Of a stretch of DNA of 64,000 nt, positions 5,491-57,645 are shown in pieces. Within the stretch, counting starts at the first letter, position 1. Each line of letters begins with the position of its first letter. The position numbers and the translations under genes are program-made. The notes beneath the pieces were generated by a model. It had not been told where the DNA came from, searched no databases, and saw only the letters and a list, made by a program, of their open reading frames with translations. This DNA is from Loxodes magnus (Eukaryota > Ciliophora > Karyorelictea > Loxodida > Loxodidae), in the NCBI GenBank assembly GCA_946699065.1, contig CAMPDV010000368.1:62001-126000 (forward strand), read 5' to 3'.

Positions 5491-5503
5491 TAGGTGGTCC
5501 ACC

Positions 5504-9560: not shown

Positions 9561-9720
9561 AATGGACATATTGAATGATTCTATTGCTTCTTCTTACTTT
9601 ACTATATTAAATGAAGCATTTCCTTTATGGTAATGTGGTTTGTCATCTTTAGGATTTATTTGAATAGACATGTTATAAGACTCTATAGTTTCCTCAAACA
9701 TTCCCGAATCATGTTGTGCA

Positions 9721-22925: not shown

Positions 22926-25220
22926 TCATATTGCACAGGCACAAAATCTTTCTATTTCTTGATGATATGCAGAGCATTTTTAAAATTAAGTATCTGAATT
23001 TGTATAGCATCGACCTTCTAGCTTCATTGGAATCAATTAACTGTATTTTCCTTCATATTTTTCTATACATTGTTCACAATTAAGAAAGGAGCAATCACTG
23101 AATGCTTTTAATGAATAATCTTTGCACGCTGCTGATTTTTATTGGCAGAATTAAAAGCAACTACGTCCTTTTTCAGCTCATCCATAGACATAAAATTTCC
23201 TGAATAGATTAAGATAAGTGGAATTTATATTTTTTTAATTTTAGCAAACACACAATTATTAATTTGCGCCTGTAATTGAAGCTAAATCTTCACATATGCC
23301 AGCGTATAAATCCTATCTATATATGTAATTAATATAACCTGTTCAATCACCTTAATTATCGACTAAATTTATGCTAAAATGTTTATTTGTAAGACTTAAA
23401 ATATTAGTTGATTATTGCAAAGTAATTCAGCATTGGATTAAAACTTCTTTTTAAAACTCAAGAATAAGCTTATAATTATATCTGTTATTTTCAACTAGCA
23501 ACTCAGCTCTCACACATCTTTTCAGCTCTAAATTTTCACACAGATATTCAAAAGGATCTTATTCTCTTATTTATTGATTCAAATATCCCATAGCATGTCT
23601 TGAAATTTATAATACTTAGCTTGAATTCACATCTATAATCTTATATTTACTACATGAGCATGCTGCAGTATGGACTTTTATGTCTTCACAAGTCCTATTA
23701 TTTGGAATTTTTTAATTTAGGATACTAATATGCGATTTTTTGTCTTAATCTTTAGCTTTTCAGGTTAAGGTTTAGTTTGACAGATTTTTTTCGAAAGGAA
23801 TAGTAATGAGGTGCTAAAATGTTGCGTATAGGTCATATTTGCCTACAAGTTACATAGAATTATGAGATAAAATATCCAAACTATTTGGAAGTTATTTTAG
23901 TAGTTAAGTGTTTCCTACCATCATGAGTAGAGGAAGATAAACTTCGTATACCATTTCCTAGTGGATTATCTTTTTGTATTTTGTTCCATGATCACCAATT
24001 AAAAATAAAATCTTATTTTTATTTGGTTCTAAGAAACTACGCATAAAATTTACTAAATCGTAGTCCATTACTTAAGCGAAAGAAGAATGAGGTAAATGTG
24101 TTGCTGTAAAATGAACAAATGCAAACCTGTTAGTATTTTTGTAATTATTTTCGTATTAAAGCAAATAATTTAGCAATCATGTATGTGCATATTTTCCAGC
24201 AATGCATTGTTCTTCATCTTTCGCTCCAATTTATTCTGATTTGCAAAAGAAAGAATTTATCAAATGCAAAGCATTTGGCTTTCTACCAAAACACTTTTAA
24301 CTATATCTTCAGCATCTATCAAAACCAATTAAAGTCGCCCATCCATATTAACTCAATCGTTTTAGAATCGATTCTGTTCCAGTTTCATCTATTTTCAATT
24401 TACCAATTGGTATTGTATCATTCAAATACCCGGAAAATAAAGGAAATAAATTTTAAATTGTCTTTCCACCTAAAAAATTATGTAACACGAAATCGAACAC
24501 TCTGTAAGACGAAAGATTGTTGAGAAATTCAATTGATTTTGGCATACTCCTATAAAAATGTTTTCTGGAAATACCATCTAAACTTAGGATAAAAACAGAA
24601 ATATTTCTAACGCTATTTTTAATTTTAAAATTTTCCCTAGGCATCAAATTTCAATGAGCTGATCAAGGAGACGAAGAACTACATTTAGCAAACATGAATT
24701 CAGTATTCGAAGTATTCACTCACAATCCCTTTAACATTTTATCAGAAAGTTTTTGAATACCTATAGTTTCTTTTAGGTAATGCTTTCCTAGATAATAATA
24801 AGCGTAGTTCTAACATTTGATTTTAGTATTTTAAGAGGCTCATCTTATAATTTTAGGTAATTAAGGACACTTTTTGACATTTATTTTTGGAAAAAGATTA
24901 ATTGAGTCATTTAAAGGAATACCAAAACTTGACGGAATGCATTTGAACTCTCCTTTCTATTCATATTAGTAAATTTGCTTATAAAAGTCATCGTGCAAGT
25001 AAATCTTATTTTATTTATTACCTAAAGTCTCATCATTTAGTTTAGAACTGTTCTAAAAAAAGACAATGCTGCTATTTATCTTATATTCCTTTAGTTCTTA
25101 AATTTCAGTTAAACTTCAGAATCCAATTAAATCATTTACAAGAAAATAAATTCATCTAAATATAATAATAAAAATCGCCATCAGTAGAATTATATACATA
25201 GTCTTTCTTTTGTAGTACAT
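22926..25220 (-). CDS. DUF229 family protein (sulfatase/phosphatase-like fold), membrane-anchored
   Basis: A single phase runs 764 codons from ATG (complement of 25218-25220) to a TGA (22926-22928), after which sequence turns low-complexity. DUF229 proteins have an alkaline-phosphatase/sulfatase-like fold; the substrate is unknown. An N-terminal hydrophobic anchor (MYIILLMAIFIIIF) predicts a type II membrane or secretory-pathway protein. Family landmarks in order: FKCIP and KKCPQLPK, EFMFAKC, the metal-site-like ISVFILSLDGISRKHF (D-G where most members have D-S), MPKSIEFL, a CW dipeptide in GFDRCWRYS, QCIAGKYAHTWLLNYL, RFAFVHFTATHLPHS, the second metal-site motif FLIGDHGTKY, then YLPLL. The C-terminal third is Cys-rich (RTCEDIKVHTAACSCSKYK; FLNCEQCIEKYEGKY). 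Twelve internal TGA occur, several at aromatic or family-typical positions, against one TGG, and there is no frameshift. That supports TGA as Trp rather than decay. No intron was needed. Confidence 0.85.
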
Positions 25221-25359
25221 ACTAAATGATTCTTAAGGACATAAAAAAAACAAATAAATAGTTTACAAAATAATTTAAATATTAAAAATTAAAAAAGTTA
25301 TATAAATTTAAAAATAATATAAAATTACTTTAATTCAATAAATATACTGATTTACAAAC

Positions 25360-25720
25360 ATATACCCATTATAGAGCAAGAAGCATCTAAAAGGCACATA
25401 TATAATTAAATAGACTTTAAAAGTTTTAAGAGCTCTCTTTGAAGGCTATTCCAGTTCTTTCACTCTCTTGATATTCTTGTCTTCCAAAGGGTTGATTTAG
25501 GAGTTCTGATAAAGAGATCTTATCATCTGGCATCTTTCATCTATAGTGTTTTTTGATGCCTCCAATCTAAACCTTTTGGCTCGTGCGAAGATATTTGATC
25601 TGTTCCTCGTATCCATTGTACTTCCTTGCTCCAAAAAATTTTGTAAATCACAGCTAGAAGATCCTTAACCGCTATTTAAATTATATGCAATATAACAATA
25701 AAAATAAAAGAAAGCGCTTC
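25360..25720 (-). mobile_element. short retroelement relic with the shared 3' tail
   Basis: On the minus strand the segment ends with TTGCTCTATAATGG, matching the GCTCTATAAT end of the SINE-like elements. Upstream it is GC-richer and reads as MDTRNRSNIFARAKRFRLEA and KRVKELEQPSKRALK in one phase, so it may be a truncated protein-coding element rather than a SINE. No match to the body of the other copies is evident. Confidence 0.4.
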
Positions 25721-26407
25721 CACTTTCATTAATTTCACACAGTTTTAAATATTTATTAACTATGTAAATTATTATATTTCCAATCTTTTTTTAATCATTT
25801 TCTTAAAACATATATTAACCCGTACTGCGTTTACTCTATTTAATTACACTCATTTTACTTCAGTTGAGTTCAATTCCATTCATTTGGTTTTTTGCTTATT
25901 TCACAAATACATTTTCTATAAAGATTTCACACCCTTTAAACATATTTTTTATACATTAGTCAAAAAATTACTACCTTTGTAAACTTAAATTTTTTTATGT
26001 AAAATACATTAAATTTCAATAAATTAAATATTACCTTTAGAAAGTATCAAAATTCAAAAGATATAAAAAGATAAAAAATTAAAATATTAATATCCCAAAA
26101 ATAAATGGATGGAGCCTTGAAATAAAAGCATTTTACAGAAAATATTTAAAGAAAAAGAAGGTTAAATAGCAGAAAAATCATCACATTTAATTAAAGTTAA
26201 GAAAGAAAAAATTAGAAAAATTGAGAAAGAATGTCGAAAAATAAAAAATGAAAAACGATGTTTTAACTCTCAATAAGAATTAAAATCAAGAATTTCATTT
26301 AGAGTAGCAGCTTCTTATTTTTAAATTTTTTGTGAATTTGATAATTCACAGTATTTTTATTTTATAAAACAAAGTTAAATATTTAAATCATATAAATATT
26401 ACATTTC
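25721..26407. other. AT-rich stretch, nothing supported
   Basis: Low-complexity A/T DNA between two elements. No signal found. Confidence 0.45.
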
Positions 26408-26922
26408 TTTAAAACCGCCATAGTTGTTCGAAGGTGAACAACAAGGTCATCTTCATCAGAGGCTGGGGAAGTTAAGTACCCATAATCGACTTTATGTCTT
26501 CTTTTGCTTTGGTTTGGCCTCGAGACATAAGATTCTTAGACCTTCGACACTGACTTGGCTTGGCTTCGTTTATTTTTAATACTGGAACTAAAAAGAAATA
26601 ATATTGCGAGCTTCATCAGAGGTGGGGAATTTAAGTACCCATAATTGACACATGTCGTCCTCTGCTTTGGTGAAGCAATGAGACACAATCCTGCCATGTC
26701 CTTGGACCTCCAGCAAGTATTAAAGATTACGAGTATTCTTAAATTATATCAGTATTGAACATTTTTATCAGTACCGAATAATTATACCAGTATTGTACAA
26801 GGTTTATCAGTATCTGATAATTTTATCAGTAACAAACATTCTTGTCAGTATGAAATTTTTTTTAAAGAGCTGCGCACCATTGAGAGTGCTACGCGCTCTA
26901 TAATCAAATTTATTTATTTATG
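26408..26922 (+). mobile_element. SINE-like element with structured modules, copy 2
   Basis: Full-length partner of the element at 4031-4546, aligned end to end with only scattered substitutions and short indels, which suggests recent activity of the family. It has the same start (TTTAAAACCGCCATAG), two modules, the 19-base repeats, and the terminal hairpin AGAGTG-CTACG-CGCTCT followed by ATAATC and a (TTTA)n tail. In module 1 the outer stem is weakened (CTTTTG for CCTCTG). The flanks do not match copy 1. Confidence 0.8.
26747..26857 (+). repeat. 19-base tandem repeat inside SINE-like copy 2
   Basis: The same array of about six ATCAGTA-centred units as in copy 1, with a few substitutions. 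Confidence 0.7.
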
Positions 26923-27039
26923 TGATATTGCTCAAATGAAAAGATCAAAAGTTTTACTAAGTTTTATAATATGGTTTATAGAAATTAATATGAATATTCT
27001 ATTATTATTATATATATATTTAAATAGAGTAAAAAGCCC

Positions 27040-27386
27040 TTTTCTTCTGATGCTGTTTGGAGGCCCAGCAAGTCAACAAAAAATGATAGAGAACGGAGGA
27101 TAAATCGGAGGAAGAGAAACTAATTACAAGAGAAGGAAGATGTGACAAGCTGGAAAAATCTGAATGCTAGGAGGAAACTTTCTTCATCATAGGTCGGGAA
27201 ATGTATCCGTAATCGCATATTGCATCCTATGCTTTGGAAGGAAAAATTACAGGGACGTACTGCAGGAAGAGGAAACAAGGAAAGAGAAACCTATAAAAAA
27301 AATTTTCGACATTAAATAAAATTAATTTAAAGAACTGCGCACCAACGAGAGGGTTACACGCTCTATAATCCAATTTATTTATCTAT
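27040..27386 (+). mobile_element. SINE-like element, divergent copy 3
   Basis: It shares one structural module and the 3' end with the full copies, but has a different purine-rich 5' body. The module starts TCATCATAGGTCGGG and ends CATCCTATGCTTTGG: its outer stem is CATAGG/CCTATG where the other copies have CAGAGG/CCTCTG, a compensatory change. The inner stems also change on both sides (CGG..CCG; GCA..TGC). The end is AAGAACTGCGCACC, a terminal hairpin with one mismatch, CTCTATAATC and a TTTA-type tail. The 5' boundary is uncertain. Confidence 0.65.
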
Positions 27387-27399
27387 TATTATTAATTAA

Positions 27400-28300
27400 C
27401 TTAAGAAAGTTTTACGATAGAAGAATCTAAATCCCGTCATGAGGACAGAAGCTCATTCTCCCTTTTGCTTAATTTAAATGTTCGGGATAACCAATTTTGG
27501 TTAGATTGATAATTCAGGTTTCTTATAGTTTTCTTTATTTTCATTTGTGATCGTTTTTATTCTCATCTTTCTTTATTATGTAGATTGCTCCACTAAGGCG
27601 GCAATACATTCTATTCATTCTGTCTTCTTCTTTTTTATCCTCTTTTTCTCTTGAATCCAATAATTTTGTTGCTTCTATTAAGATTTCCAACATTTCCTAT
27701 ACAAAATCGTGGGCTTCTGCAGCAGAAGTATTACTTCCTAATCTTTAATTGTTTATCTTTATCTAGATGTTCTTTAGATTCCATATCCATAGGAATTGTT
27801 TCGTTCAAATTTGACTAGTTTGGTTTTAATTACTATAGTTTTTATTCCTATTTACTCTCTAGTTCATTCAGCTCGGTTGAAACACGATTTTGATAATTCT
27901 AAATATTAAAAAATGTATCTATTTTTTGTTTGAAATTATCGTTTCTGGATACAATTGTGCTGATTTTTAAATTCAAGCTTTTATGTGAGTTTCTGGTTAA
28001 GAAATTTAAGCTTCTGTACCTCTTCCAGAAGTTAGCAACCATTAATCCAAGTTGAGTAACATTGCCTTGCCCAGTCCCAAAGTCTAAGATTCTTACTTCC
28101 TGGTACATGAAGATTTCCTATAGTTTGCGTTGTTTTTCTTCCGAAGTCAGTGCTCCTGATGTGTTTATTAATAACTTCTTATTTAATCATTTTAATTTAT
28201 CCCCCTCGATGTCAGGTTGGGAATACTTGCATTGCCTAATCTCTTTAATATGTTTTCAAGGGTTTTAGAAGAAGGTTAAGTCGATTTAAAATAAAACATA
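27400..28300 (-). pseudogene. coding-like relic, possibly ORF1
   Basis: The minus strand carries a coherent phase with SGALTSEEKQRKLQEIFMYQ, RILDFGTGQGNVTQLGLMVA and VSTELNELESKQEQKLQQL. A one-base phase change follows, and then TSAAEAHDFVQEMLEILIEA. The second part is acidic and helical, like the coiled-coil part of the ORF1 proteins nearby, and it abuts the tail of the SINE-like copy 3. I see no clean zinc knuckle. The family is unproven. Confidence 0.35.
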
Positions 28301-29180
28301 CGGTTAATAATTAACATTTCTGATCTTTATCCTACTATAATGAAAAGCCAAACAAGTCCTTTTAGAAATTATAAGCCATTTTTAATCCTTAGTTTTCATG
28401 TTAACGAGATTAAAAAAAAATCATCAATTTAGATTTTAATCTTTAGCTATAATCAAACTGTATTAAATCTGATTTAAAGAGAATTACAAACTTATTTATT
28501 TAAATTACATAATATATCTTCTAAACAATATTCAATGGAAAAATCCAAATTTTTAACTTGTATCTAAATAATTTACAGCGATAAATGTTTCTATAATTAA
28601 AAGTAAATTAATTTAAACCACCAAAAATGCTTTACACTTAATTCCTTTTAAATCTAATCCTTACTATCTAGAATTTTTGAACTTAATTATCGAACTTCTT
28701 CGATTTTAATATTAGACAGATCTTCCAACTTTTACTTTTCTTTTCTTTTCTTTTCTTTCTATTTTCAAAATTTAATTTATTTGATTTAATGAAATTTAGT
28801 TTCAGCTTTCCGTTTTATTTATCACAAAACAACATAATTGTATAAAGTATTAATTTTTAGGTAAATAAAGATGAATTAATTATTTAATAAGATAGCTTTA
28901 TTTCCATATTTATAAAATGTATTACCAGCATATTATCAATAGGTATTTTAAGACTGCTATATGAAAAAGCTTATATTTGCATTAATATGATGATATTGAG
29001 TTTAGGTTTGTGAAAAATGAAGTAATTAATACTTATTTGCTTGAACAACCATTGGAAGTATTGTTATGAACTATTTCATTAGTTTATATTTTGTTAATTA
29101 TTATAGTTTTTCCTTTAGATGGAATTTAATATTGGACAACATCTTATAAAAGGAAAAATCAAGAAGGTTAGATGAAAAGT
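28301..29180. other. AT-rich stretch with a pyrimidine microsatellite
   Basis: Nothing supported apart from the CTTTT run at 28735-28759. Confidence 0.5.
28735..28759 (+). repeat. CTTTT microsatellite
   Basis: Five consecutive CTTTT units, all pyrimidine on the plus strand. Confidence 0.85.
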
Positions 29181-29189
29181 TCTTAAGAT

Positions 29190-29840
29190 CAAAAATAAAA
29201 AATGAAAGCTATTGATTAATCAAATTTTTCATCTCCTTCTTAAGGCAAGCGCATGACAAATCCCAAGCCTGATAATCTAGTAAGGGAAAAATTAAAGAAC
29301 TTAAATAAGTGATAATTAAACAAGAAAAAGCAGTCTTTAATCTTTCCAATTAGATAAGAGAGGATTTGACCAATTATGATAAACTAAGCATTGAAATTAA
29401 TTAGCTTAAAGATCTACTAATAAAAAATTATATTACGCGAGAAAAAAACTGATCTCAGACTTAACTTCCAACATCTCTGTATGAAAAAATGGAAATGGAA
29501 GTTAACTAAAATTAATTATCACACGAACTAACTCCTCAATATCAAGATTAATAAGAGATTATTAAAGATTAAGGTATATTTATTAAAAAAATAGAAGATA
29601 TAAAAATCAATTAAGCAAAAAAATACAAAGAACAATTAGCAGGAAGAAATGCTGATAATGTCAATCAAGCTGGTACAAATTAAAAACTGTTAAACATTTA
29701 AAAAATTGCAAAAATAGGAGGAAACAAAAGCATTAAAAGAAACAACAAGAATATATTGCTAAAAGTACTTATATTTTTCTCTTAAATAAGTAGAAAAAAT
29801 TGGGAACGAAATTATATCTTATTTTAAATAAAACATCTAA
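29190..29840 (+). pseudogene. retrotransposon ORF1 relic with degenerate zinc knuckle
   Basis: An ATG-started piece (MKAIDQSNFSSPSQGKR) gives way after a one-base shift to a long helical phase: LKQVIIKQEKAVFNLSNQIR, YDKLSIEINQLKDLLIKN, KKIEDIKINQAKKYKEQL. From 29650 in another phase lies CWQCQSSWYKLK followed, one base out of frame, by a Cys codon. This matches the C-x2-C-x4-H-x4-C knuckle with His changed to Tyr (TAC for CAC) and a base lost in an A run. The second residue is TGA, as in the knuckle at 31.0 kb, where the intact ORF1 has Phe. Order and composition match the other ORF1 proteins here; two frameshifts mark it as a relic. Confidence 0.5.
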
Positions 29841-30720
29841 AATTATAAAAATTTATTAAAAATGGAATAAAGAATAAAATTTTAATTTTTGTTGAATTTT
29901 ATTAACTTTATTATAATTTTAAGATAATACACCATTTTCTACATAAATTATTCCATTATATGAATAATTAAATATAATATATTTTAATATTATCTAATTT
30001 TTGGTGTCATTTTTAATTGAGACTTTTATATTTTTTGTTTTGCTAAATTTATTTGAATTATAAGCTTTCAAGTATTTTTTCTTTTCATTTTTTTAGTTTT
30101 TTTTATCTTTTATTTCATTTTTTATATTTTAATTATTTTAATTTTTGTCTTATTTATTGCATTTTTTTTGAAATTGCATTATATTTTCGAAAAAGATATT
30201 TAATTTGATTTTTCTGATTTAATTATCGAATTTATTTATTTAATTTTTTAGATTTAGATTATTCTTTAGATCTTCTTGAGCTTACCTTTTTATCTTACGT
30301 TCAAGCATAATTTAAATATTTTCCTTAACTTAATTTTACTGAAATCTTTTATCTATTAAACATTAGCAAGTTTGCTATTTGCAATTTCTTCTAAATTTAC
30401 CTTTCTCTTTTATTCCCTTATATAAATACTTTATAGTATAACTATAAAATTTTCTGATTTACAGTATATTATCCATTGAATGTATGATTACCTTAAAATC
30501 TATAATTTCATCTCACCTATTTACTCTATAATTAACATCTAAACTTCTTTGCTTTATTTAAAGCTTTTTTCACAATTCTTATCCTAAGTATATATTCAGT
30601 CCTTTGATATTATTTAAGAAGTTCTTTGCTCATTTAACTAGCTTTGAAAATCTATCCATTATTGAATAAATAAATATCTTTGCTTTGAATCTCTTCACTT
30701 CTATTATATAAGCTTATAAT
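29841..30720. other. very AT-rich stretch, nothing supported
   Basis: Long T and A runs, with no coding or structural signal. Confidence 0.5.
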
Positions 30721-30734
30721 AATAATAATGCAAA

Positions 30735-31527
30735 CTAAATGTTAAGAGTTTTGAAGTTCTTCGGGATTCCAACCGATTTCGCTCTGCCTTTTTTTTAACG
30801 TGGATATACCACGGCCTTTTTTTGAATGTGGGTAGCTACCACAATGAATTTTCCATGTTACCACTAAATAATTTCTATTTATAAATTCCTGAGTCGGTTA
30901 TTCAAAGTTTGTTTAACATCCTTCATGTTTTTATTTCTTCTCTTTTTTTCAATTTTTATCATTTTTAACAATTTTTTAATAAGTGATATTTCGACCTACA
31001 ACATCAACAATTTTTTGTCTATTTTTTTTATTCAACTAAGGTAAAACTAATTTTTCTATTTGATCTATTCTTTTAATTAAACTTTTATCAACATTTTATT
31101 CTATATTTATTTCTTAATCTTTTGCTTAAGAAGGGAGGACTTCAATACTCATATTTACCCCTTGTTCGAAATTATTTTAAGACTGAGTATAGAGCTATTG
31201 TTCTGTCACAATATTGTTTTATATAAGCTATTTCCTAAGAATTAATAGTTCGTTATTTTGATCCTCAATGTTATTCATAAGCTCTCTAATTCTTTCTCCT
31301 TGATTATATGTTTCTTCTTCACATTTAGAAATTAATTTTTTCATCTTTTCCATTTCAATTGAAAGCGAAGTGCTCTCATTAACTTATCCAACCATTACTT
31401 TGCCTTCTGAAGAGGAGCTTGATAAGTGTTCCATTGATTTCTACTTCTTCTCTAGTTCTTTGTTAGCTCTTCTTCTTGCGTTCCTTGCCTAATTTTTAGA
31501 TAGTCGAATAATCTATTCCATTTCCAT
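30735..31527 (-). pseudogene. retrotransposon ORF1, coiled coil and CCHC knuckle, one frameshift
   Basis: From ATG (complement of 31525-31527) a verified phase runs about 180 codons without any TGA. It has a basic N terminus (NARRRANKELEKKQK), then heptad-like helices (EMEKMKKLISKCEEE, ELLILRKQLIQNN) and an acidic/Gln linker. After a one-base shift in an A-rich run the second phase begins with the knuckle at 30968-31009: CWCCRSKYHLLKNC, a perfect C-x2-C-x4-H-x4-C, with its Trp encoded by TGA. It continues with SGIYKQKLFSGNMENSLW, which resembles GGQIYKPKWYTIQGDW in the same place of the intact ORF1 at 32.9 kb. Without the frameshift it would be a full ORF1 of about 260 residues. Two short palindromes in the tail, CGTGG/CCACG and TGTGG/CCACA, lie inside this coding phase. 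Confidence 0.7.
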
Positions 31528-32918
31528 TTTTTATTTGATTATATAAGCTTATTTTAAATTAGCTAACAGTGCTAATTTTCATCTAGTATAAAGAGTTCCC
31601 AGAAATATTTTAGTTAAATATCGTTTTAAACTAAATTTGATTTAACTTGAAATCTAATTTTTAAGGCTATTACAATAATATAGCCAATTTGCTGTAATAA
31701 GTTATAAAGGTAACTGAGTGTTACAAACTGAAAAGCAAGGTATTTGAATTAATACTGAAACTTAATATTCATAGATAGGAAAACTATGAAGTAAGGAATA
31801 CTAAAAGAAGAATCTTTATAGCATTCATTGCTTTAACTTACAGATATAAAGACTACAGAGCTACCAACTACAAGTCTATTATAGTAATATACCAGTAGAA
31901 GAAACAAATCAATTGATAAACTACAGATATTTAAATCGATAAGCTTAAGATAAGTAAGAAAGTTAGATTAATAAACTTGGCCAAAGATAGTCTAACAAAT
32001 ACAAAACTATATTAAAGTTTCTCTCCTTTAACTATGATTTGTCTCTAATGAATTTAGTTGTAAGATAGATTCACTAAGATACAAAGAAAATGTAAGGAAA
32101 AAGTTTTAAAATTACAATGTTTGAATTGGTCTGTTCCAAGAGGTATAAAGAAAGGAAAAAAATAAAGAAACTTGTGGGAAGTACAACTATCCTATGAAGT
32201 AGATCTTTAAATAAATTTAGAATTATGTTGTGATTAGAAGTTTAAGGTTTTTGACTATTAATGAAATAAACATGAAGGAGTAGAAAAAAGCTGCCTAAAT
32301 TTTATGAAGAGGCTAATGAATCAAAAATTTAAGAAAGAGAATTAGTTAAATTGAAAAACCATTAAGTTAAGGATGCTGAATAACACTCTATCCAATTAAA
32401 TGAGTAAAACACGCTAATTATCATATCGTATGTTTAAAAAAAGATAGTCTGTAGCTTGAAATTCAAGGATTTAAAAACTTATATGACGAATATAGAAAAA
32501 GAAAAGCAAGATTCAATAATTTTAGGTAAAAATTCAATATTTTACAGCCGCTCATAAAATCCTTTTACAAGCAAATTAAACAACTTGATACATAAAAAAG
32601 TACGGTTAACATTTTGAAGGGTAGTTTTTTAATTTGGAGTAATAACTAATTAAAATACTAAAGACGAAAAAACTTGGTAGAAAGAAATTTCAGTTTCTGA
32701 TTAGATTTCAAAGAGATAATTTTAATTTCTTATGTGACTATTCCAAAGAAAAAATGGTAGAAGGGTTCAAGAAAGGCTTTTATACCACCTCCTAAAAAGG
32801 GGAGAGAAAATAAGAACCCTCATCTTTAACTCACACATCTTCTTCCTAGAAATAATCTTCTTCTCAAAACTTTCAAGAATAATAGACTCGACTAAGAACT
32901 TCCAGGGTAACCACTAAG
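31528..32918. other. stretch between divergent ORF1 copies
   Basis: It holds the presumed 5' leaders of the minus-strand ORF1 (left) and the plus-strand ORF1 (right). The right part, from about 32.1 kb, is purine-rich and may be coding or leader, but I recognise nothing in it. Confidence 0.35.
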
Positions 32919-33656
32919 ATGGGACAAAAGCGCCAAAAGGCTACCCCGATGACACCAACTGAAGAGGAAGAACCTAGAAAGGTGCTGGAGACGCAAGAAG
33001 CAGCACCCGTGCGAGAGTTTGCGATGCCACAGTTCCAGGAAGAACAGGCATAAATTTTAGTCGCATTCTCTGACCTGAAGGAGGAAGTAAAGAGGCTACG
33101 ATTAGAGAATAGAGCTCTAAAAAATCAAGTTACTGAGCTCAAGGAATGGAAAGAAAGCTTCTGGGAAATCTACGATTGAGAGCAAAACATTTTCTTCAGG
33201 GAAATGGGATTGCTGCAGCAGAGAGCAACTGTGCTTGAAGAGAACAGCAAGTAGCAATAGTAGTAGGAATTCAAAGTTAGGACAATTCAAGATACAATGG
33301 ACATAGAAGGAGCTACTAATTTACCGAAGAGTCCAGATAAGAAATGAATTAGAAATAAACCAAGATGCTTTGAATGCAAACAAACTGGACATAAATATAG
33401 ACAATGTTAGAAATTAAAATTAATTAAATAATAGTACTGGAATAGAAAATAATAAGAAAAATAATAGTACTAATATTAGGATAAGATTAGACGAGAATTC
33501 TGTAACTAATTTTATCCGTCAGGAGGTCAAATATACAAACCGAAGTGGTACACAATCCAAGGCGACTGAAGAAAGAGTTTTGAAGGGAGCTGGTTCCAGC
33601 CAGGTTCTCAAACTGGTCCTGTGAACACGAGGTCGAAAGTCCTCCAAGTTCACTAA
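32919..33656 (+). CDS. retrotransposon ORF1: coiled coil plus CCHC zinc knuckle, apparently intact
   Basis: Nucleic-acid-binding ORF1 protein of a non-LTR element. One phase, checked line by line, runs from MGQKRQKATPMTPTEEEE to the region of 33.65 kb. It contains a leucine-zipper-like helix (LKEEVKRLRLENRALKNQ), more helix (REMGLLQQRATVLEENSK), a Gln tract (CAA with TAG codons), and the knuckle CFECKQTGHKYRQC at 33366-33407. A basic Gln/Tyr-rich tail follows with GGQIYKPKW and SFEGSWFQPGSQ. TGA falls in frame at 33177, 33345 and 33567, each Trp-compatible, against five TGG. The gene is clearly richer in GC than its surroundings, as expected of a recent arrival. The end is uncertain: the TAA at 33654 is chosen because sequence turns low-complexity afterwards, though TAA normally reads as Gln here. 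No ORF2 follows, so this is a 5' or solo copy. Confidence 0.75.
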
Positions 33657-35085: not shown

Positions 35086-35089
35086 GAGA

Positions 35090-35500
35090 ACTAGAAAGAG
35101 ATCTAGTTCAGTGTATACATTGCGAGTAATCTCACACTAAATGCCACCACGGGGAAGGGGGCACAAGCTCAGAAGAGACAACCTAACTTGACCGAAGGTT
35201 CTCGCTAACAGTGTGAAAGTTTGACTAACGAGCTGCTAATGACTTAACTATAATTCTTATTTAGATCTTATTCAAGAAGACTAGAGAATTTGGTTCAAAA
35301 TTTAAGATTAATCTTTAATAAGTAGATTCCCCATTTGGAGAGCTGTCGTGATTCATTGGACGAACAGAATGAAAGCAAGAAGAATGAGAACATTTTTTTA
35401 TAATTAAATATTAATATTGAAAGAGTTGTTCGCCAACTAGGTGGTATGCTCACTATAATCGGATTTATTATTATTTATTTATCAATACCTCAGAAATATA
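35090..35500 (+). mobile_element. GC-rich retroelement end with a related tail
   Basis: The segment starts near AGTGTATACATTGCGAG and includes CCACCACGGGGAAGGGGGCA, unusual GC for this DNA. It ends with GTTGTTCGCCAACTAGG, GTGGTATGCTCAC, TATAATCGGATTTATT and a TTTA-type tail. The TATAATC plus oligo(TTTA) end recalls the SINE-like family, but the body does not match the other copies, so it is probably a separate family or the 3' end of another LINE. A possible long-range stem is AGTGT..ACACT. Confidence 0.5.
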
Positions 35501-40600: not shown

Positions 40601-40629
40601 AGGGATAAGAAAGTTAGCTTATATAAAAA

Positions 40630-45600: not shown

Positions 45601-45650
45601 ATAAGTATAAGTACTAAAATAGAACCTTTTATGCAAACTATTATAAAGAA
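42601..45650. other. AT-rich stretch, nothing supported
   Basis: No recognised motif or repeat. Confidence 0.4.
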
Positions 45651-47120
45651 ACCTTAGAATCAAAGAGAAATTATCAAAGATAAGTAAATCAAAATATGAC
45701 TGATAAATGTAATGCTTATGTAGCTTAAGCAATACAAAATTGAAATCCAGCATTTGAACTACTAAAAATTGGAAATAGTAATAAAGCTCTTAGAAAAGTA
45801 ATCGAAATTAGAAAATTAAAAACTATCTACAAAAAGATGCTTAAAATTACAATGATATGAGTAGTTCAAATCTGCTCTGGAAAGAAGATTGAAACTTAGC
45901 TAGATTTTACTAAAGTTAATTTAAAAATAAAATCAATAACTAAGCAAGGCAAAGGGAAAGTTACTTATTTAATATTAATGAGCTAGATTTAAAAAATAGT
46001 AGAAGCTTAATAAAATTGTTGTCTCTCTTTGTAGTTATTGATAGAAAATTAAACAAACAGGTATTATTAGTAAATTTTTATTAAGAGATTAATAATCTAA
46101 ATCTTAGAAATCAAAATAACTTATAAAATCTGAAATTTATTTTAGAATCTTACAGGCTTGATAAAGTTCTGAAAAATAAGAGTGTTGAAATGCAGGTTCG
46201 AGCATGAATAGGAGTTTTTATCGCTCAAATTTAAAGATCAAACTTAGTCGGAGATTTAAAAATTTAAAGTGCTATGACTTTAGGATGTAAAGTAATTTCT
46301 GAAGAAGAACTTCAGTTGAAGTTGAGAGGAATTTATTTTAGAGAAGGCAAAATTATATGTGGCTAAGGAATATATTGTTTTGGGGCTAAAATTTAAACGC
46401 ATGTTGTACTGAATTAGCATTAAAATAGACAAAAGAAATTGGCAATTCATTAGTAGAGAAGCCAAAAAAGTAAGAGAACGGAAAAAGAAAAGCAAACATC
46501 AAAATATAGCAAAAATTAAGAAAAATATTCTTAAAAAAATAAAGCTGAGATAAAGTGCTCAAAACTAAAAGAAATTAAAACTTATCTTAAAGCAAAAGGA
46601 TTAGAACTTATTAACTCCAGGAAAAAAAGCCTTTCAAAATTTTAAAAAGAACTATAAAAGTAAAGTATAAGATAAGAAAAAAGGCTCTTAAAATAAAATA
46701 AACTAAGCTTTATAAGGATAATAGAAATTGAAGAAAAAAGCTTAGCATTTTTCACAATCAACTTAAGCGAAGAGAAAATAATAATAATTATCCAATAAAA
46801 ATAAGGTTGCAACTACAGGGAACTTAGTCAGATCGAAATTATTAAAAAAATTATTGCTAAAGTAGAAATATAATCCAACTCTAGATAAAAGGATAGAATA
46901 ATTATAATTTATAATATTCTATAGAAAGTTTGCTACATTAGTAGTAAATGAATAAAATGCAGATTATCTGAGAATAAAGAAAGAGTGCTAGATGAAAGAT
47001 ATGAAAGAAATAAAATAAAAGAAAACTAACTTTTGATACTTAATTTATTTTTATATTCTGGGGAGTATAGAAAAGCAAATAAAGTTCGCAGTCAAAAGAA
47101 AAGCGAATGCAACTACGTTT
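45651..47120 (+). other. purine-rich coding-like region, frame unresolved
   Basis: The plus strand is strongly purine-rich, which in AT-rich genomes usually marks a sense strand. Two frames give attractive but unrelated proteins: LKLRGIYFREGKIICGQGI in one, and REAKKVRERKKKSKHQNIAK with LLTPGKKAFQNFKK in the other. I recognise neither and cannot choose. It could be a Lys/Glu-rich protein gene or a transposon relic. Confidence 0.3.
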
Positions 47121-50100
47121 CAAGTAAAGCAAACAATTACGATTTAACTTAATTTTTTCTTATTGCTATTTTCAAAGATATACTAACTTATTTAGAAATC
47201 ATAAGCACTCTAAATCACAAAACTATAGAAGGTAATTTTAAAATTTTAAACTATTTAGAAAAACAAAGCTTATTATTAAAAAGGAACTTAGCAAAGGATT
47301 ATATTAAAATAGCTTTTATTTCTATAACTAGATAATATATTTTTCATTAATGATTATTATTAGTTCAACAAGCTTTAATTATTTATTGATAATCTTAAAG
47401 TTAAAATCTTTAATTACCTATATAATTAGCTATTATTAAAGCAAGTTTCATTTATTATTATTTCCTGTATCTTCATTTGAAGAATTTTTTATAGATTTAG
47501 ATATAGGATATTGAAGATTTCAATTCAACTACTAAAAAGCATTTTTTTATTAAATTGAGCAAATTTTATTTAAGTATTAAAGAAGCGAATAAAGCGCTAT
47601 TTCTCAAGTAATCCAAAATGAAATCTATAAAGGTAGAATTAATGAAGGTACCTTTAGAAAGAAGTGTAAAAATATAAGATATAAAGAAAGATATTCTAGA
47701 GTTAATACACTTATAAATCACTTTTTAATTCGTTTAGTTGAGACATAATATATAAATATATTCGTTCTATTTGAAAGTTTAGATAGCAACTTATTAACTT
47801 TTTAGTAGTTATTATTTTGATTTATCTCTTAAAAACTAAATTATAATAATAGCTTTGTAATCAGATAAGTAATGTTAATCAATTGCTATTAAATTAATTT
47901 TAATTTATAAATATTAAAAATTATTAGATTCATTTAAGATATTAAAGATATCAATAATGATTTTATTGTTATTAAATATCTTCAAACTATTTGTATATAC
48001 AACCTTATATTATTAAAGCTTCTGCTAAATGTAATAGATTATTCTCAATTAACAAATCTTTATATTATTATTGCTAAGCGTTTATTAAAAGTGCACTAAT
48101 GTCTTTATTTTTAATTATAGAGATCTTTAACTTATAAAAATTTAACTTTTTTAAGTATCTTTCTATAGATATTTTATTAATAATCTACCTAAGAAATTTA
48201 ATCTTAGTACTTATAGATATATAGCTTTTCCTTTAAATTAATATTAATTAAACTTCCTAATCATATTTTAAGATTTTAGGATTAAAGCAATAAAGGTTGA
48301 ATAATAGTTAAATGCGTTTATTTATTCAAATTGTCTCTAGCAAACCTTAAATAAGATGATTCTATATGCTTAGATAGATTATCATATTTTAACTTTATAT
48401 TTCTCCAGCTTTTTCAGTTATAATTCTTATTACCTTCTATTAATTTATCTAAAACTAAGATAATTAAATAGTTTCTTTAGTTTGTCTTAAAGCTTTTAAT
48501 TTATTAAAACTATTTAATCAATATAAAGAACTAGCTGTACTAATGAGTTAGTTATAGATTATATAATACAATTAATTTAATTTATATATGCCTAATAGCT
48601 TTATATATCTATTAAAGTTTAGTTTAATAATACATTAACTTCATTAGAGAAACTAGAGAAATATTAGTCTTTTCTTTAACTATTTAAAACTAGTACTAGT
48701 ACAATTAGTAAATTTTAATCTCGTTTCTTCATTTCTCAAAAAGTAAGTAACTATTAATTATACGATTTTTCTATTATTAATTATTTAATTAAGACTCCTA
48801 TGCTTCATACCAATTTTTGTGTTTTTTAGCTCTATTTTTCTATCTTAAAATATCAAATTTAAGTGCATACTTATAATTATTCTTCTTAAAATTGTGGTTT
48901 ATTAAGGATATAGAATATTAAGATCTGCTAGTAGTATTTTAATTTTAACTTATATTCATGGAAAATCAAACAAAAGTGGCTCAACGTTAATCTATTATTA
49001 CTATTATTATTTACTTATAATAAGGTTTTTTAAATAAAAGCTCTTGCTTTCTTCTTGCATATATTACTATAGTTTTTTAATTCGAGCTTATTAATAAAAC
49101 TTTTAATAAAATTAACTAAACAATATTAAGTCTGAAGATAATAATTTTATTAGTTTTGGTGTATTTAATAAACCCTTTAATAAAAAACATTGGATTGACA
49201 ATAAAAATTTCATAAAACTTGATCATTCATAATTGAAATTTTAAACTCTTAACTAAAATGATTTATAATACGGAAATATTAATATAATTTTAACTTAACC
49301 TGTTTTCATCATTCCTTAGAATTAATAAAAACTCTAATTTAAACTTTGCATTGGAGTTATTAATATTTTTAGTTTTTGAAATGTTTAAATAATAAAATTA
49401 TTTTTTATAAGGTAGACTTTGATTTATAAGTAATTGTTATAATTATAAGCTTTTATTAATTAGTTTCGTTTACTTTTAAGTTATTTGTAATATTTTTTAT
49501 CACTGCTTTTTTACTTATACTTTTCGCTTTTTATTTTGTTGTTTCTTGTTAGTTAACTATTTACTCGTTTCCCTTGTTAGTTCTTATATGTTAGGTATGT
49601 AAATGTTTTCCTCTTTTAGCAAAGAACTTTAAATAATTTATTTGATACTAAAATATCAAAATTAAATTATATAAGAATTAGATTATTCTATCTCTTTTAA
49701 AGCCAGCTTTAAAAGGTTGTAAGATACTTAATCTTATTAAGAATTATGTGATATAAAAATGCTCTAAATTAGTTTTTGTCTTAATTTCTTTATAAATTAA
49801 ATATTTTACACCAATCTAATTTATTATAATTTTCTATATAGAAGTGCCTGCAAACTTATACATCTCTTCTTATTTTAATCTCTGGCTTTTCTATTTTAAA
49901 AACTAAATAAGAAGCTTTTCTTTGATTATGTAATAAGATAGTAACTAGCTAAATGAAATTCTTTAATTTTCATTTAAGTTGCTATAGATATAATGCTTTA
50001 CATTTCTTTTGTAGCTCAGAGATATTTAGCTAATGTTAAAGTTTAATGAAATCAAAATGATATAATATAACTATTTACTCTTTTAAAAATAAATCAAAAA

Positions 50101-50300
50101 AATATATGATTGTATTAAGTTGAAAATTCAAAAAGGTGTGAAGGGGTGCACGTGGCAAACTTGATAAACTAAAATTGTAATAATAAATCTATTTGATCCA
50201 AAAGAAATAAAAATATAAATGTTTTAAAAGATAGAATCTCATAGTAACTGAAATAAATTAACTGACCAGCAAGTAAAACCATTTAAGTTTGTTCTTTTTA
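47121..50300. other. AT-rich stretch, nothing supported
   Basis: No motif found. It presumably contains the promoter side of the GTPase-SecA gene. Confidence 0.4.
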
Positions 50301-50436
50301 TTTTTCATCCCTTTATTTACTAAATTAATTTATTGAAGCGCTTATAAAATATAATATTAAATTTATTATTAATATACTGAAGAAATTCGAAGATTACTTT
50401 ATAAAAATATTATTTATAAATATTACAGTGTATTTG

Positions 50437-53400
50437 ATGTTTGAGTCTTATGAAGAATGTTCTATTTTATTAATATAACAGATCATAATTTATTTATAAT
50501 GGCATTGCAAAGTTAAAATTTAAATAGCTTTTTTAAATAAATTGCTAGCTTTATTTAATAACATCATAATATTTACGTATTCTTCAAATTTTTTCATCTA
50601 TTAAATCTTAATATCGTCGTTTATTGAAGTTTATGATAAATTAAACGAAATAATTTCTAATAAATTCTGTAAATTAAATGCTTCTAAATAAATGATTATC
50701 TAAGCTCCTTTAAAATGGGCTAATAGAGATGCTTCCAATTTAAGGTTGGTAAAGCCTATCTCTATACCTTTAATCATCTCAAATTAAAGCTTTTCGAGCT
50801 AGTTTTGAGGAATAGAAACTCTAAAAATGGAGATTGCGTAAGAAAAGAATTTATCAGGGAATGAAAAAGCAATTTATAAATCCTTAAAATCAAAAATGCT
50901 TGACTTAGAACATTCTTAAGACCACAAAGAGTGTGACATAAATGAAAATCAGAAATTAAACAAATTGCAAAAAAATTCTTATTAATAGGAAGATTTGCTA
51001 TTTTTTGAGAGAATTACGTCACAATAAAGCAAATCTAAGATATTTTAGAATTTATAAATTAACAAAAAAATTCCTTAAAGCACCAGTTTTTAAATCAATA
51101 AAACAGGAAATAAAGTCTAAATAAATTAAATCATTTACTTTTTCTAAAGCCAAAAGCTTTTAGGAGGAGGATAATCTGCTTCTAAATAAAAAGAGATAGA
51201 CAAAAATGAATAATGAGAAGAGGAACTAACAAAAGAAGAAAAAGAAAACATTTAGCATAAATTATTTGAGTAATGAGCTTCTTAATTAAAAAAGAAATAG
51301 AAAATATAATTAGCTATTCATACTAAAATTCTAAAGCCTATGCCTTTTATACTGTGTTAGATATTTTAAAATTATTTTAGTGAAAACGTAATAAATTAGA
51401 TAAGAGAAAACTAGTATATAAATCTTTCTTAATTCTGCTCGTATATGACAGATTTCCTTCTTAACACTGAAGTAGAGTAAGAAAAATAAAACGCTGATTA
51501 ATAAAATCTTTTAGAATTTTTAATCTAAGATGATATTTAAGATCTCTATATTGATGCAATTAAAGAAAACTTTCCAGGAAATTGCTTAGAAATAAGATCG
51601 ATCGAAGAAATTTATAAATGTACCATTGTAATAAAAACAAAGTGAGATAAATGAGTAAATAGTCTTGGAGAGGATTATGATTTAAATATATAAGATGTAA
51701 TTAAAATACAAGAGGTAAAGCCTGGATACTTTGATGTCTGACATGAAGAAACATTAGGAAATTAAAAAAAATAATAGAACAATTCAGTAATCAGCGTAAT
51801 ATAGGAAATGGCCCAAAAGATAGAATAATTTAAATTAACTTAGTTAGCTTTATTATCTGAATCTGATATAAGATATGAAACAGCAAATTTTATAAAAAAA
51901 TAAAAAAATAAAGAAATTTAACTTTAGCTTTACTTCTGATGAACTTAATACCCTAAACTGATTCCGGAAGTAATGAAAGAAGAATTTAAGCTATTTAAAA
52001 TAAACAAGCAGAAAGTCTAAAATTAAATAAAGAGCCAGACTAAATCTTAGGAAATTACTGAAGAAGATATTAATAAACTAAAAGAATACATAGATTAGGG
52101 AAGACAAATGGCTTTTAAAGCAAGAAAATAAGATTTAGTTGTATTTTTAGGAAACACTGGAGTTGGTAAAAGTACTTATATAAATTATCTCCATGGATGT
52201 TCCTTTGAAATATAAAAATAAAACAATCAAAATGTTGCTGAAGTATCTTCTACAGGAAAAAAATCGATTGTAGAGCTTGGTCATGGAAACATTTCAAAAA
52301 CATTATTTCCTGAAGTGGTGAGTGACGAAAATTTTACATATTGCGATTGTCCCGGATTTTTTGATAATAGAGGTGTTCATATTGATATTGCTAATTCTGT
52401 AAACATAGTATAAACTTTTAGTTAAGCTAAAAGCATTCGAATAATTTTACTAATTAGCTATTATAGTCTTCTAGCTGACCGTTAAAATTTAATAAAAGAA
52501 TTTTTTAAATAAATTGAGTTTTTATTTGGGTCAGCTTCAACTGCAAGATAATATTAATCTTAAATTCTACTAGGAATTACCTAAGTTCCTTCTAATTCCG
52601 CAAATTTACCAATTGATCCTAACTTAGATTCAATTAAAGAATTTTTACGTACAAATGCATGCTAAGCAGGCAATGATATTCTTGAATATTTTTTAGATTC
52701 TGTATTTATTTTTAATTTATTTGGAGAAAGTCTACAAGGAGAGCTCAGCAGAAGCGAGTAGATTTAAAAAATAAAAGGGATGCAATCTATTCAAAGCACA
52801 TAAAATATATTTAAACCCCCTTTGAGTAAAGATGGATAAAAATTTCTTTTATAAATAGGGAATTTGTTTAGAAATCGTATAGATAATTGAATTAAAAAAC
52901 AGAAGTATAGTCTACTAAAAAAGGATTTATGCTTATTAGAGTAACTTCACATCATTGAAATGGAAGAAATTAAATAATTGCACTAAGAAAAGATTAAAGA
53001 AACTATGTAAAAAGTAGATGAATGTTTAAAAAATTTCTCTGAATTTCTTTCAAATAAATAGTTCTTTAAAGCTAAAATCTATTTTAATTTGCTTAGTGAA
53101 CTTTAAGAAGCTTAAGTGCCCTAATTAGAAGACTTCATTAATAAGAAATACACCCAAATGGCAACTTAATTGAACGAAATTTTGTAGAAATATAAAGCTT
53201 AAATAGAAAAATAAATTTAATTAAATGAGACTATGGATGCTATTTTTACACTTTAAAGTCTTATGTATTTAGAATAAGCATTCTTGGATAAAATAAGTGA
53301 TATAAAAGTGCAAGTAGAGCAAATTATATTTAAAGCAAAATAATAATAGGAAAGCATAATAAAGTAATGAATCAATCAAAAGGATCCAACAGAGGTAACA

Positions 53401-56400
53401 ATGAACTTTATTAATCTAGCATTAATTGAAAAATATGATTTTCTATAGCTATACAATACAGCAAATAATGCAATGTTGTCAATTATTAATAAAAATGAGA
53501 CTAATCCAAATATTCTTTTTGTTGCTAACCAATTAAAAATTAAAAATAATTGCACTATAATTCAGCGCTTTTTCAAAATACCTGCTCCCATAGATTAATG
53601 AAGAATTTATGAAGTTAGTTACATTGTAATTCAATTCAACAAAATCGTAGATAAAAAATTGGAAGATTTAAATGATGCATATGAAGAAGAAGATTTTGAA
53701 AAAGGAGATAAATTAATTCTATCATGCTAAACCATGCTATAATATTATGACTGAGAAAACTACTTAAAAGATTAGTTAATAGATATGGAATTGCTAAAAA
53801 AATCCTGTATAATGAGGTAAAAATAAAAATGAAAAGAGAGTACAACAAATATATAAGAAATTATATAATTTATTTAATAAAAATAAATAAATAGTTAAGA
53901 AAATTATTTTGATTAATTAAAAGAATAATTTTAAATGTGAGTAAAATAAAAGGAAAAAAATTGACTAGAAGCAAACACTAAATTTTTATATTACTTATAA
54001 TAAATACTAAATAAAACTTTTACTTTTTGTAATAATGCCTGCTAATAGTAAGAGTTTGATACTGTTATATAATTAAATTAAATATTGAGTCAAATGTAGT
54101 TTGAAGAGTGATTTATTTAGAAAGTCGATATTAAAATAAGGATGCAAAAGATGTAAGATGAAATGATATAGCAGCATAAAATGTTTTACTAAGATTTATA
54201 AACGTATTAAATAAAGTGTGTTTAATCAATTGAATCAGAAAAATTTCCTGAAGCTTACAATTTCTTTGAAATCATAGAAAAGAAATGAAAATAATAAGAA
54301 GGAGAAACTAAATAGTAAATCTGGCAATAATTATAAAATATTTATAAGCATTTTACAATAAAACTAGAAGATTTTAAAAATAGATTACACTTCTATTTAA
54401 AAGAAACAATTTATAACTAAAGCAACTGATTAGAGAGTTTAGAAATATACAGCAAATTTAAATTTGCTGTATAAATTTTAGAATCCTAAGAGAAAAATTT
54501 ATAAAACTTTTCCTTTATTAGAACTTCAGTTGAAGAAGATTTCAAATAAATAAAAAATGGAATATTATAAAAATTAGATTGATTGAAAAACTAAATTCAA
54601 ATATTTTTATAAACTTTAGAGACAGATCAAGCATCTTAAGATTAATTTAAAAAGACTTCTAGTTAACTCTAATAATTAAAAGACTATTAAAAAAATTTAG
54701 ACAAAATTAAGTAAATAATTCCTGAAATTAGTGAAATAGAAGAAATAATTCAAAACTTTTTGTAATAAACAAACTAGAGTATTTAGCGGTTTGGCTTTTA
54801 ATTAGTTGCAGCAATTGATGCGAGAAACTTTAAAAAAATAAAAACATTGTACTGTCAATTATTATTTTCAGAATAAACCTTTTAAAAGCATGGAATATCT
54901 ACCCAAGTTCTTGAATTTGAGAGATAAATTGCTGAAAAATTAGAATAAATTGTGTAAGAAATAGAAAATGAGTTAAAAAGATATTTATATGAAGAAAATT
55001 TAGAAAAAGTCATTGATTTTGAAGAAAATTTAAAATCTCTAATCTTATTACGCTAAGCCAACAGTCTGGATGATATTATAGAATTAAAATCAATAACTAC
55101 TAAGCTAGTTTAAAATTTTTAATAATCATTTAAAGATTATATGAGTAATTTTTAAAAAACAATTGATATTTAATAATCAAAAATATATGAGAGATGTGGA
55201 GTTAGAATAATTAAGATCAAAGTTTTATGATATTTAATGTCTCATCTATAAAATTTTCAATAAGAACTAGAACATAGAATTATTTAAGAGTTTTTAGATT
55301 TTCATTGCTAATAATTTTAGATAAAAGCTTAATAAACTCAAAAAAATGATATGCTAAATTCGTTTTGGTTTTTACTGGGAAACTATTTATCCGAGATATA
55401 AAAAAATAACGATAACATAAGTCGTTATATTAGTGAACTTATAGATGACTTTCCAGAATTTAAAGCAAAAGCAAATTAAATTTTTGATGAGAAAACTAAT
55501 AATATATTTAATTATGAAGATCCATTAAAAGCCATTAATATTTTTAAATAAATTGATTAAGCCTAGATAGATGAATAGACTTTGAAATAAGTTGTGGATG
55601 AATATTGGAAAGAGTATCAAGAGAATCTATAAAAAGCTATTAAGGAAGATATTTTAGTAAACACAGCTAGAACAAGGATTTTAAAAAGAGCAAATTATTT
55701 AAAATAATAGATTTAGAATATTTTCCCTCTTGAGAGAATTTAAGGATCTAAAATTGTAATAGCTTAGATATTAGGATGCATTTTTTCTTTGTTTTCTGTA
55801 CTTAGCACTGGTGGATAAAAAATTCCTAAGCTAAAATATGCTTTTACATAACCTCGAATAATTTAAGTTTTAACAATTTTCAAATTACTTGGATTTGATA
55901 CAAGAGCTAAATTATAAAATCACTTAATATAAGTTGGTACAGGAGAAGGAAAATCATTGATTCTTGGAGGTTTAGCTGCTTTACTTAGTTTCCTTGGTTA
56001 TAAAGTAAAAATTGCATGCTATAATTCTTATTTAAGCGAAAGAGATTAATAATTATTTAAATCTCTATTCTCTAGCATCTATGAATATAGTGATATTTAC
56101 TAAAGCTTTTCTAGTTTATCTAACTCACTAATGCAAAATTATATAGGTGATCTTAGGGATTATTCTGTGAAGCTCATAAAAAGATAAAAAATTAAAAATA
56201 ATACGATTTAACTAGATAAAGAGAAATCTATTTTATTAATAGATGAAGTAGATGTATTTTTCGGATAAAATTTTTATGGAAGTACTTACGAACCATTAGT
56301 ACATATTTGCGATGAACAAATTTTTAATTTTTAGTAATTTATATGAGAATAGCTAAAACAAAATTAGAATGAAGATAAATCCTAGACTATTTCAACTTAA

Positions 56401-57645
56401 GTCTAGTAAAAAGTTTTAAATGATGTTAAAGAATCAGAAAAGTTTTAAGACTTAATTAAATAATTTAACTTAGAAAAAGTCTTAGAGAAGATTACAAATA
56501 AGATGATAAAGCATGCTTCTTAAATATTGAGTGGTAAGCATTCTTATATATGAAATAACTAATTAAAGAAAGTTGGCTATTTATAAAATGATGGGACTAT
56601 AAGCTATTATTCTTACAATGGATATCTTACAACATTCACATATTTATTTGAATATGATAAATACAATTATAATAAAAAAGATTTAATAAATGAACTAGGA
56701 TTTATTTTTACTTGTGGAAAATTTTCTTATGCTGAGGTTCCTAATTATTTTTCTTACGTTTTTGGAGTAAGTGGAACATTGGAAACTTTAAATGAAACCG
56801 AAAAAAAAATCGTTTTAAAATATGAGTTGAATAGGTAATCTATAGCACCTTCCATGTTCGATAAGCAGAAAATACTTAAAAATGGTGTGAAAGTTTTTGA
56901 TACTTCATAAGCCTATCTAGAAGAAATTAAGCAATAAACTATATAATCAATTTCTTAGTAAAGAGCTGTTATAATAGTTTTCGAATCTTTTGAAAAATAT
57001 AAGGCATTTAAAACTAATTAAAGTATTATGAAAGATTTAAAGGAAGTATGTCATGTTATAAATTCTATTAAGGAAAAAACTAGTTCGAAAGTTCGACAAA
57101 GTTTAATTAGACAAGCAGCTGTAAGTTAATAGATTACTTTAATTACTCGTGCTTTTGGAAGAGGTTCAGATTTTATATGTCATGATCGTGTTCTTAAAGA
57201 TGCTGGAGGGGTTCATGTAATATAGACCTTTTATAGTGATAGTTTAGCAGAAGAAATTTAAATAAAAGGAAGAACAGGAAGATAAGACGATCCAGGTGAG
57301 TATAGTCAAATTCTTTGATGGTAAGATTTATAAAATATAAAAGTTTATGGAAAGCCAAATAGATAAGATTATTAAAAACTAGGAATTGAAAGCTGTAATC
57401 CAAAAACTTTTTTAAATAAAAAGCGATAGCTAAATTGTTAAGATACTTTAGAATAGAGATAAAAGAATGTAGAAGAATCTAAAAAAAAACATAACAAAAC
57501 AATTGAATTAGCAGAAGCAGCAAGAAACTAATCAGAAAATTCTTAGTAGAAAGCAATGGAAATTTTACTTTCTTTCCAAGATTTTGACTATTAATATTTA
57601 AATTAATATAATTTAATCTTTTTTAAATAATTTGAAAATGGTTGA
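50437..57645 (+). CDS. giant protein: GTPase domain fused to a SecA-type ATPase motor
   Basis: One phase, read codon by codon, spans about 2400 codons. Order: helical N-terminal part; a GTPase domain (P-loop GNTGVGKST at 52150, about residue 572; switch motif DCPGFF at 52345; ITQVP near the usual specificity position); about 1100 residues rich in Gln/Glu/Lys helices; then a SecA DEAD motor with VGTGEGKSLIL (55936, compare SecA TGEGKT), LLIDEVDVFFG (Walker B, 56242), FGVSGTLE, AFGRGSDF (57157) and QIKGRTGRQDDPGEY (57268). SecA drives protein translocation in bacteria and plastids; SecA-like motors without a known role occur in ciliates, and a dual-nucleotide mechanoenzyme here is my inference. 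About 20 TGA occur in frame at Trp-compatible sites (PIDQWRIY, QYYDWENY), with 4 TGG and no frameshift. The start is uncertain: the frame looks coding to about 50.3 kb, and 50827 is another ATG. The end may extend: another phase beginning MVEHKIWKDYTLTD (57638) looks coding beyond the TGA. Confidence 0.85.

Follow-up and report, generated by a model that had tools for sequence, protein, structure and literature searches.

Reading the genetic code of a karyorelict contig from its own genes: glutamine at UAA and UAG, tryptophan and stop at UGA

Nuclear codes in which all three standard stop codons are also sense codons have been described in Condylostoma and Blastocrithidia; we take them to be NCBI tables 28 and 31, respectively. 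Condylostoma magnum reads UAA and UAG (UAR) as glutamine and UGA as tryptophan, and terminates at UAA and UAG as well. Blastocrithidia also makes much use of UGA for tryptophan, but there UAR encodes glutamate and UAA is a stop (PMC12153298). The syndinian Amoebophrya sp. ex Karlodinium veneficum has UAR as glutamine and UGA both as tryptophan and as stop, and its dynein heavy chains strongly favour UGG over UGA (PMC6394959). In the karyorelicts with table 27, i.e. Loxodes and Parduczia, UAR is glutamine, UGA is tryptophan inside genes and a stop at their end, and the genome is large and rich in LINEs. Table 27 is stated for Loxodes in the available part of PMC11441545, where the MAC assembly of Loxodes magnus is given as 706 Mbp, and that of PMC6935857 has UAR as glutamine and UGA as stop in Loxodes.

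The stretch of 64,000 nucleotides analysed here (the window) is, with a probability of about 0.95, karyorelict nuclear DNA, almost certainly from the MAC of L. magnus, in which table 27 is used. What could be established are the meanings of the three codons, the presence of UGA at gene ends and two copies of a tRNA(CUA) gene. This code was already known, having been published for karyorelicts. A preliminary description, made from the letters of the window, had suggested either such a lineage or an independent origin of the code; the first suggestion holds and the second does not. The assignment fits the LINE remnants found in the window, which match a genome that carries such elements by the thousand.

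The GC content of the window is 24.6%, and with table 11 no stop-free run in it is longer than 900 bases. When UAA and UAG are read as glutamine and UGA as tryptophan, two genes become open throughout, both with Pfam matches; these are also the only two that a coding-score gene finder showed clearly. The first is a DUF229 (sulfatase-like) gene on the minus strand (22926..25220; PF02995, 1.4e-47) that runs in one open phase from an ATG at 25220 to a TGA at 22928-22926. Its 764 codons, the final TGA excluded, include 33 TAA and 6 TAG (39 TAR), 12 TGA and a single TGG. By eye, its N-terminus is hydrophobic and its C-terminus rich in cysteine. The second is a GTPase/SecA-like gene on the plus strand (50809..57645), also in one open phase, whose start is approximate and whose end lies between a TAA at 57592 and a TGA at 57643-57645. 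Between 50809 and 57642 it has 2278 codons, with 179 TAA and 44 TAG (223 TAR), 22 TGA and 4 TGG. Pfam gave SecA_DEAD (1.1e-6) and GTPase families, the PDB gave SecA2 (2.1e-9), and the SecA part aligned with a profile of its own homologues as a single piece (659 columns, 532 bits). The earlier picture of long genes that keep one phase while full of TAA, TAG and TGA is thus confirmed, with in-frame TGA counts that had been put at about 12 and 20. For the second gene the coding part, given earlier as 7.2 kb, comes to about 6.4-6.8 kb, and the DUF229 gene, described as single-copy, belongs to a family with 55 PF02995 matches in the genome. The coding GC of the two genes is 24% and 28% as compared to 33.5% for L. 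magnus coding sequences (PMC11441545, available part), two AT-rich genes being no fair sample of a genome. The lower values would favour another karyorelict with table 27, such as a different Loxodes species or strain, which we regard as unlikely.

The combination of a GTPase and a SecA-like ATPase is a fusion; a protein of 2960 amino acids (P0124) shows the same arrangement with a von Willebrand domain added, and the names found among the SecA-like proteins include Rotaria, Culex and Reticulomyxa. DUF229 is an expanded family, with several of its matches clustered, e.g. on contigs C138 and C332. The search with the DUF229 protein gave no matches, and its comparison with the PDB no significant one. 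Pfam scans of both strands at 13.6-22.9 kb and 25.4-34 kb revealed no other gene that could inform on the code, the minus strand at 4-13.5 kb gave a weak TPR match only, and both strands at 58-62.95 kb a single match with an E-value of 0.087. tRNA and Rfam scans across the window found none.

The meaning of UAA and UAG was investigated with a profile of homologues of the SecA-like part. The 8000 candidates with the most words in common with it were scored, which yielded 128 homologues, and 120 of these were used; the profile was built without the query, whose stops were masked, and was aligned at 468 bits. The summed log-odds at 29 TAA sites were 32.1 for glutamine, 23.6 for lysine and 19.3 for glutamate, and at 9 TAG sites 9.0 for glutamine and 3.7 for lysine. 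As a control, the profile recovered the own amino acid of 25 out of 31 sense codons having at least 5 sites. With a longer profile (121 homologues) glutamine reached 41.3 at 36 TAA and 11.5 at 10 TAG sites, and the sum of 52.8 over these 46 sites was not attained in any of 20000 random draws (mean -3.8). A clear example is the TAA at 57259..57261 (plus strand), which falls in a column where the profile has glutamine at 0.84.

There are smaller comparisons that run against this trend. With five homologues of the GTPase domain, 18 TAA sites favour lysine (14.3) over glutamine (10.6), two TAG sites favour glutamate and one TGA site alanine. Likewise, when ten residues were tried with the Pfam model of DUF229, UAR as lysine scored 168 bits and UAR as glutamine 166.1. 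In each of the two eRF1 genes that the genome carries, the glutamine of the catalytic GGQ motif is a TAA. Together with the 120-homologue profile, this upholds the glutamine reading of the preliminary description, and as judged from the alignments UAA and UAG are shown to encode glutamine in this genome.

The first eRF1 copy (L066, 436 amino acids) has 13 TAA and 7 TAG in frame and is colinear with solved eRF1 over residues 6-432 of 436 (532 bits); by eye, 9 of its 19 aligned TAR sites stand opposite a glutamine there. The second copy (L067) likewise has in-frame TAR and the TAA in GGQ. The two are about 35 kb apart on contig C196 and differ in a few residues. Around the NIKS motif both read GRAQNIKS, the solved chain 4d5n_A having GTASNIKS. 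The best match to the eRF1_1 model, L065, has no GGQ and by eye appears Pelota-like.

As regards the tRNA-Gln genes expected for UAA and UAG, a tRNA(CUA) gene is present in two copies in the genome (58.6 bits), and no tRNA(UUA) was called among 6 pattern matches. ARAGORN labels the tRNA(CUA) gene as Pyl; its body presumably resembles that of tRNA-Gln. Contigs C78, C103 and C158 carry evenly spaced tRNA matches (about 1753, 527 and 1752 bases, respectively). ARAGORN, applied to 9 of 30 such loci, called tRNA-Lys(TTT) in all 9, with an adjoining tRNA-Ala(TGC) in 2.

The meaning of UGA inside genes is best seen in the DUF229 family. The genome assembly (705,730,643 bases in 7843 contigs) was searched, and 28 of the 55 PF02995 loci were aligned with the DUF229 gene of the window (29 rows). 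TGA and TGG shared columns 693 times as compared to 21.1 by chance (1000 shuffles, maximum 56), and the tendency was the same when near copies were dropped (19 of 29 rows; 298 versus 9.8). TGA shared no columns with CGA (0 versus 12.8 by chance) or with the cysteine codon TGT (0 versus 74.8). As a counterpoint, TGA shares columns with the tyrosine codon TAT 2.4 times more often than by chance.

Six of the nine aligned TGA sites of the window gene, all on the minus strand, fall into columns that consist mostly of TGA and TGG. These are 24663..24665 (21 TGA, 6 TGG, 1 Asp; n=28), 24651..24653 (11 TGA, 9 TGG, 7 Tyr, 1 Phe; n=28), 24177..24179 (14 TGA, 11 TGG, 2 His, 1 Phe; n=28), 23760..23762 (11 TGA, 8 TGG, 2 Ser, 2 Thr; n=23), 23343..23345 (10 TGA, 5 TGG, 5 Tyr, 4 Phe; n=24) and 23178..23180 (4 TGG, 2 TGA, 1 Thr; n=7). 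The other three fall into variable columns. One such site is the TGA at 24311 (Thr 9, Ser 5, TGA 3; n=28), and the peptide GFDRCWRYS around it, which had been cited in favour of tryptophan, is therefore no evidence.

In the SecA-like gene the TGA at 56344..56346 (plus strand) stands in a column of 121 rows in which 111 homologues have a residue, tryptophan in 103 of them. Over the three aligned TGA sites of the SecA profile tryptophan leads with 5.4 before tyrosine with 2.5, a result carried by the site at 56344, and 8 of 20000 random triples equalled it. As for composition, TGG alone would account for 5 tryptophans in 3042 codons, far short of the 22.7 predicted by the homologues (P 9e-6); counting TGA raises the number to 39, an excess that speaks against the reading (P 0.001). 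The share of A-ending codons is 34/39 for TGR, 212/262 for TAR and 654/812 for five other two-fold boxes pooled.

Swapping residues in the Pfam alignment of DUF229 did not favour tryptophan. At 166.1 bits it scored below eight of the nine other residues tried (e.g. Gln 170.5, His 170.3, Phe 170.2), only cysteine (165) being lower, and site by site it was within 1.4 bits of phenylalanine and serine. We read this deficit of a few bits as the effect of non-conserved columns and of the cost of a rare residue. Since the swap cannot decide the meaning of UGA, the paralogue columns were relied on instead, and these comparisons show, as far as sequences can, that UGA encodes tryptophan inside genes.

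The preliminary description had taken all three stop codons as sense, which is correct as far as it goes, but UGA is also found as a stop. The end of the DUF229 protein could be aligned in 7 of the 28 paralogues; for L005 the match did not extend that far, and 20 loci were taken with 300-base flanks only. In the window gene (22926..22928, minus strand) and in these seven paralogues the next TGA is 1-4 codons past the aligned end, and the GC content drops behind it. The coding score of the window gene stops at 22932. Both eRF1 copies also terminate in TGA, at the place where solved eRF1 ends. UGA is thus a terminator as well as a tryptophan codon, and no UAR stop was seen in these 10 genes (the window gene, its seven paralogues and two eRF1 copies). 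According to the available part of PMC11441545, coding UGA and UAA are depleted in L. magnus over roughly the last 20 codons of a gene. In the last 16 codons of the 8 DUF229 genes, a cut chosen after looking at the data, there are 0 TAA (4.9 expected), 0 TGA (1.2) and 2 TAG (1.5), while 5 more TAA are found 17-20 codons before the stop; a depletion of UAA near the stop is suggested by these post hoc counts.

A code of the Condylostoma type, in which all three codons are sense or stop and UAA and UAG also end genes, finds support in one place, where the SecA-like gene ends. The GC content drops to 13% over 60 bases starting at 57561, 12 of the 47 homologues reaching that region end within 11 residues of 57561 (some of them maybe cut by contig ends), and the TAA at 57592 precedes the first TGA at 57643. 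The gene could end at this TAA, a stop that table 27 would disallow. Wherever else an end was placed, i.e. in the eight DUF229 genes and in both eRF1 copies, the end codon is TGA, and we regard a Condylostoma-type code as very unlikely. A misreading of UAR as glutamate (with UGA as tryptophan, as in Blastocrithidia) or of UGA as cysteine (as in Euplotes) has a negligible probability in our view. Glutamate is a near substitute of glutamine, and the UGA frequency of 0.72-0.85% of codons in Blastocrithidia (PMC12153298) is not far from the 1.1% seen here. Glutamine is, however, ahead by 12.8 bits at TAA and by 8.4 bits at TAG, and glutamate would place a wrong residue in the GGQ motif of eRF1, whose glutamine is the TAA; cysteine is contradicted by the lack of shared columns between TGA and TGT.

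It could also be supposed that the genes are decayed, as pseudogenes or by C-to-T changes (repeat-induced point mutation) that turn CAA and CAG into TAA and TAG and TGG into TGA. Such changes would put TAR on glutamine and TGA on tryptophan positions without any frameshift, and the window does hold two LINE remnants with a decayed appearance. Yet 46 of the 48 SecA profile columns with a probability of at least 0.6 are matched by the query, including 12/12 glycines and 4/4 arginines, TGA shares no columns with CGA, and in-frame TAR is found in every paralogue taken and in both eRF1 copies. Decay is thus extremely improbable as the source of the in-frame codons.

The first of the LINE remnants is on the minus strand at 5500-9800, with an RVT_1 match (6.2e-7) at 7399-7898 that continues in another frame and, by eye, an endonuclease-like DFNAL motif upstream of the reverse transcriptase piece. 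The second, at 58800-60600 on the plus strand, shows a GDFNAF motif by eye and a reverse transcriptase-like stretch that is 66% identical to the first over 32 amino acids. About 2,700 RVT_1 copies and more than 30,000 LINE repeats per assembly are given for L. magnus in the available part of PMC11441545. A GC-rich stretch at 32900-33500 (plus strand) resembles, by eye, a coiled coil in one part and carries a CCHC zinc-knuckle motif; it is without a Pfam match and perhaps encodes an ORF1/gag-like retrotransposon protein, to judge from these motifs. A dispersed repeat is found at 4029-4543 and 26405-26921, the two copies sharing 95% identity over 518 bases, and again in part at 27326-27393; its common tail could, by eye, be tRNA-derived and SINE-like. 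Two further repeat pairs (39998-42567/60433-63526 and 2055-2861/5133-5827) are diverged and gapped, with pieces 68-83% identical. As they are gapped and apparently non-coding, the repeat pairs were left out of the codon-swap test.

As for the mechanism, UAA and UAG would be read as glutamine by tRNAs with matching anticodons; UGA is tryptophan inside genes and a stop at the gene end. Swart et al. (2016) proposed a model with translation as the default, in which eRF1 prevails where the end of the transcript is near (PMC4967479, available part). A tRNA-Trp(CCA) with a 4-bp anticodon stem is mentioned for Loxodes, with reference to Swart et al., in the part of PMC13092985 at hand.

The genes analysed here use UGA more often than is given for other species with such codes: it makes up 1.1% of codons in the two window genes and likewise in the set of 28 DUF229 paralogues, as compared to 0.120% in Parduczia and 0.042% in Condylostoma magnum (PMC4967479, available part). 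UGA is the majority tryptophan codon in these genes, unlike in the dynein heavy chains of Amoebophrya, with a UGA:UGG ratio of 185:69 in the paralogues and 34:5 in the window genes; the eRF1 copies have 0 UGA and 4 UGG each. One could tentatively think of a two-tier use, in which essential genes would avoid sense-UGA and expanded families would tolerate it, even as the main tryptophan codon. We consider this rather doubtful; only a handful of genes was sampled, and the Pelota-like L065 seems by eye to hold an internal TGA.

The code reported here is a rediscovery from raw sequence, and it shows that such codes are detectable in this manner. Standard gene calling fails on this genome. A UGA that is sense or stop according to its place ranks among the strongest departures from the universal code and is relevant to translation termination. 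The two-tier use, if general, would show how the ambiguity of UGA is paid for.
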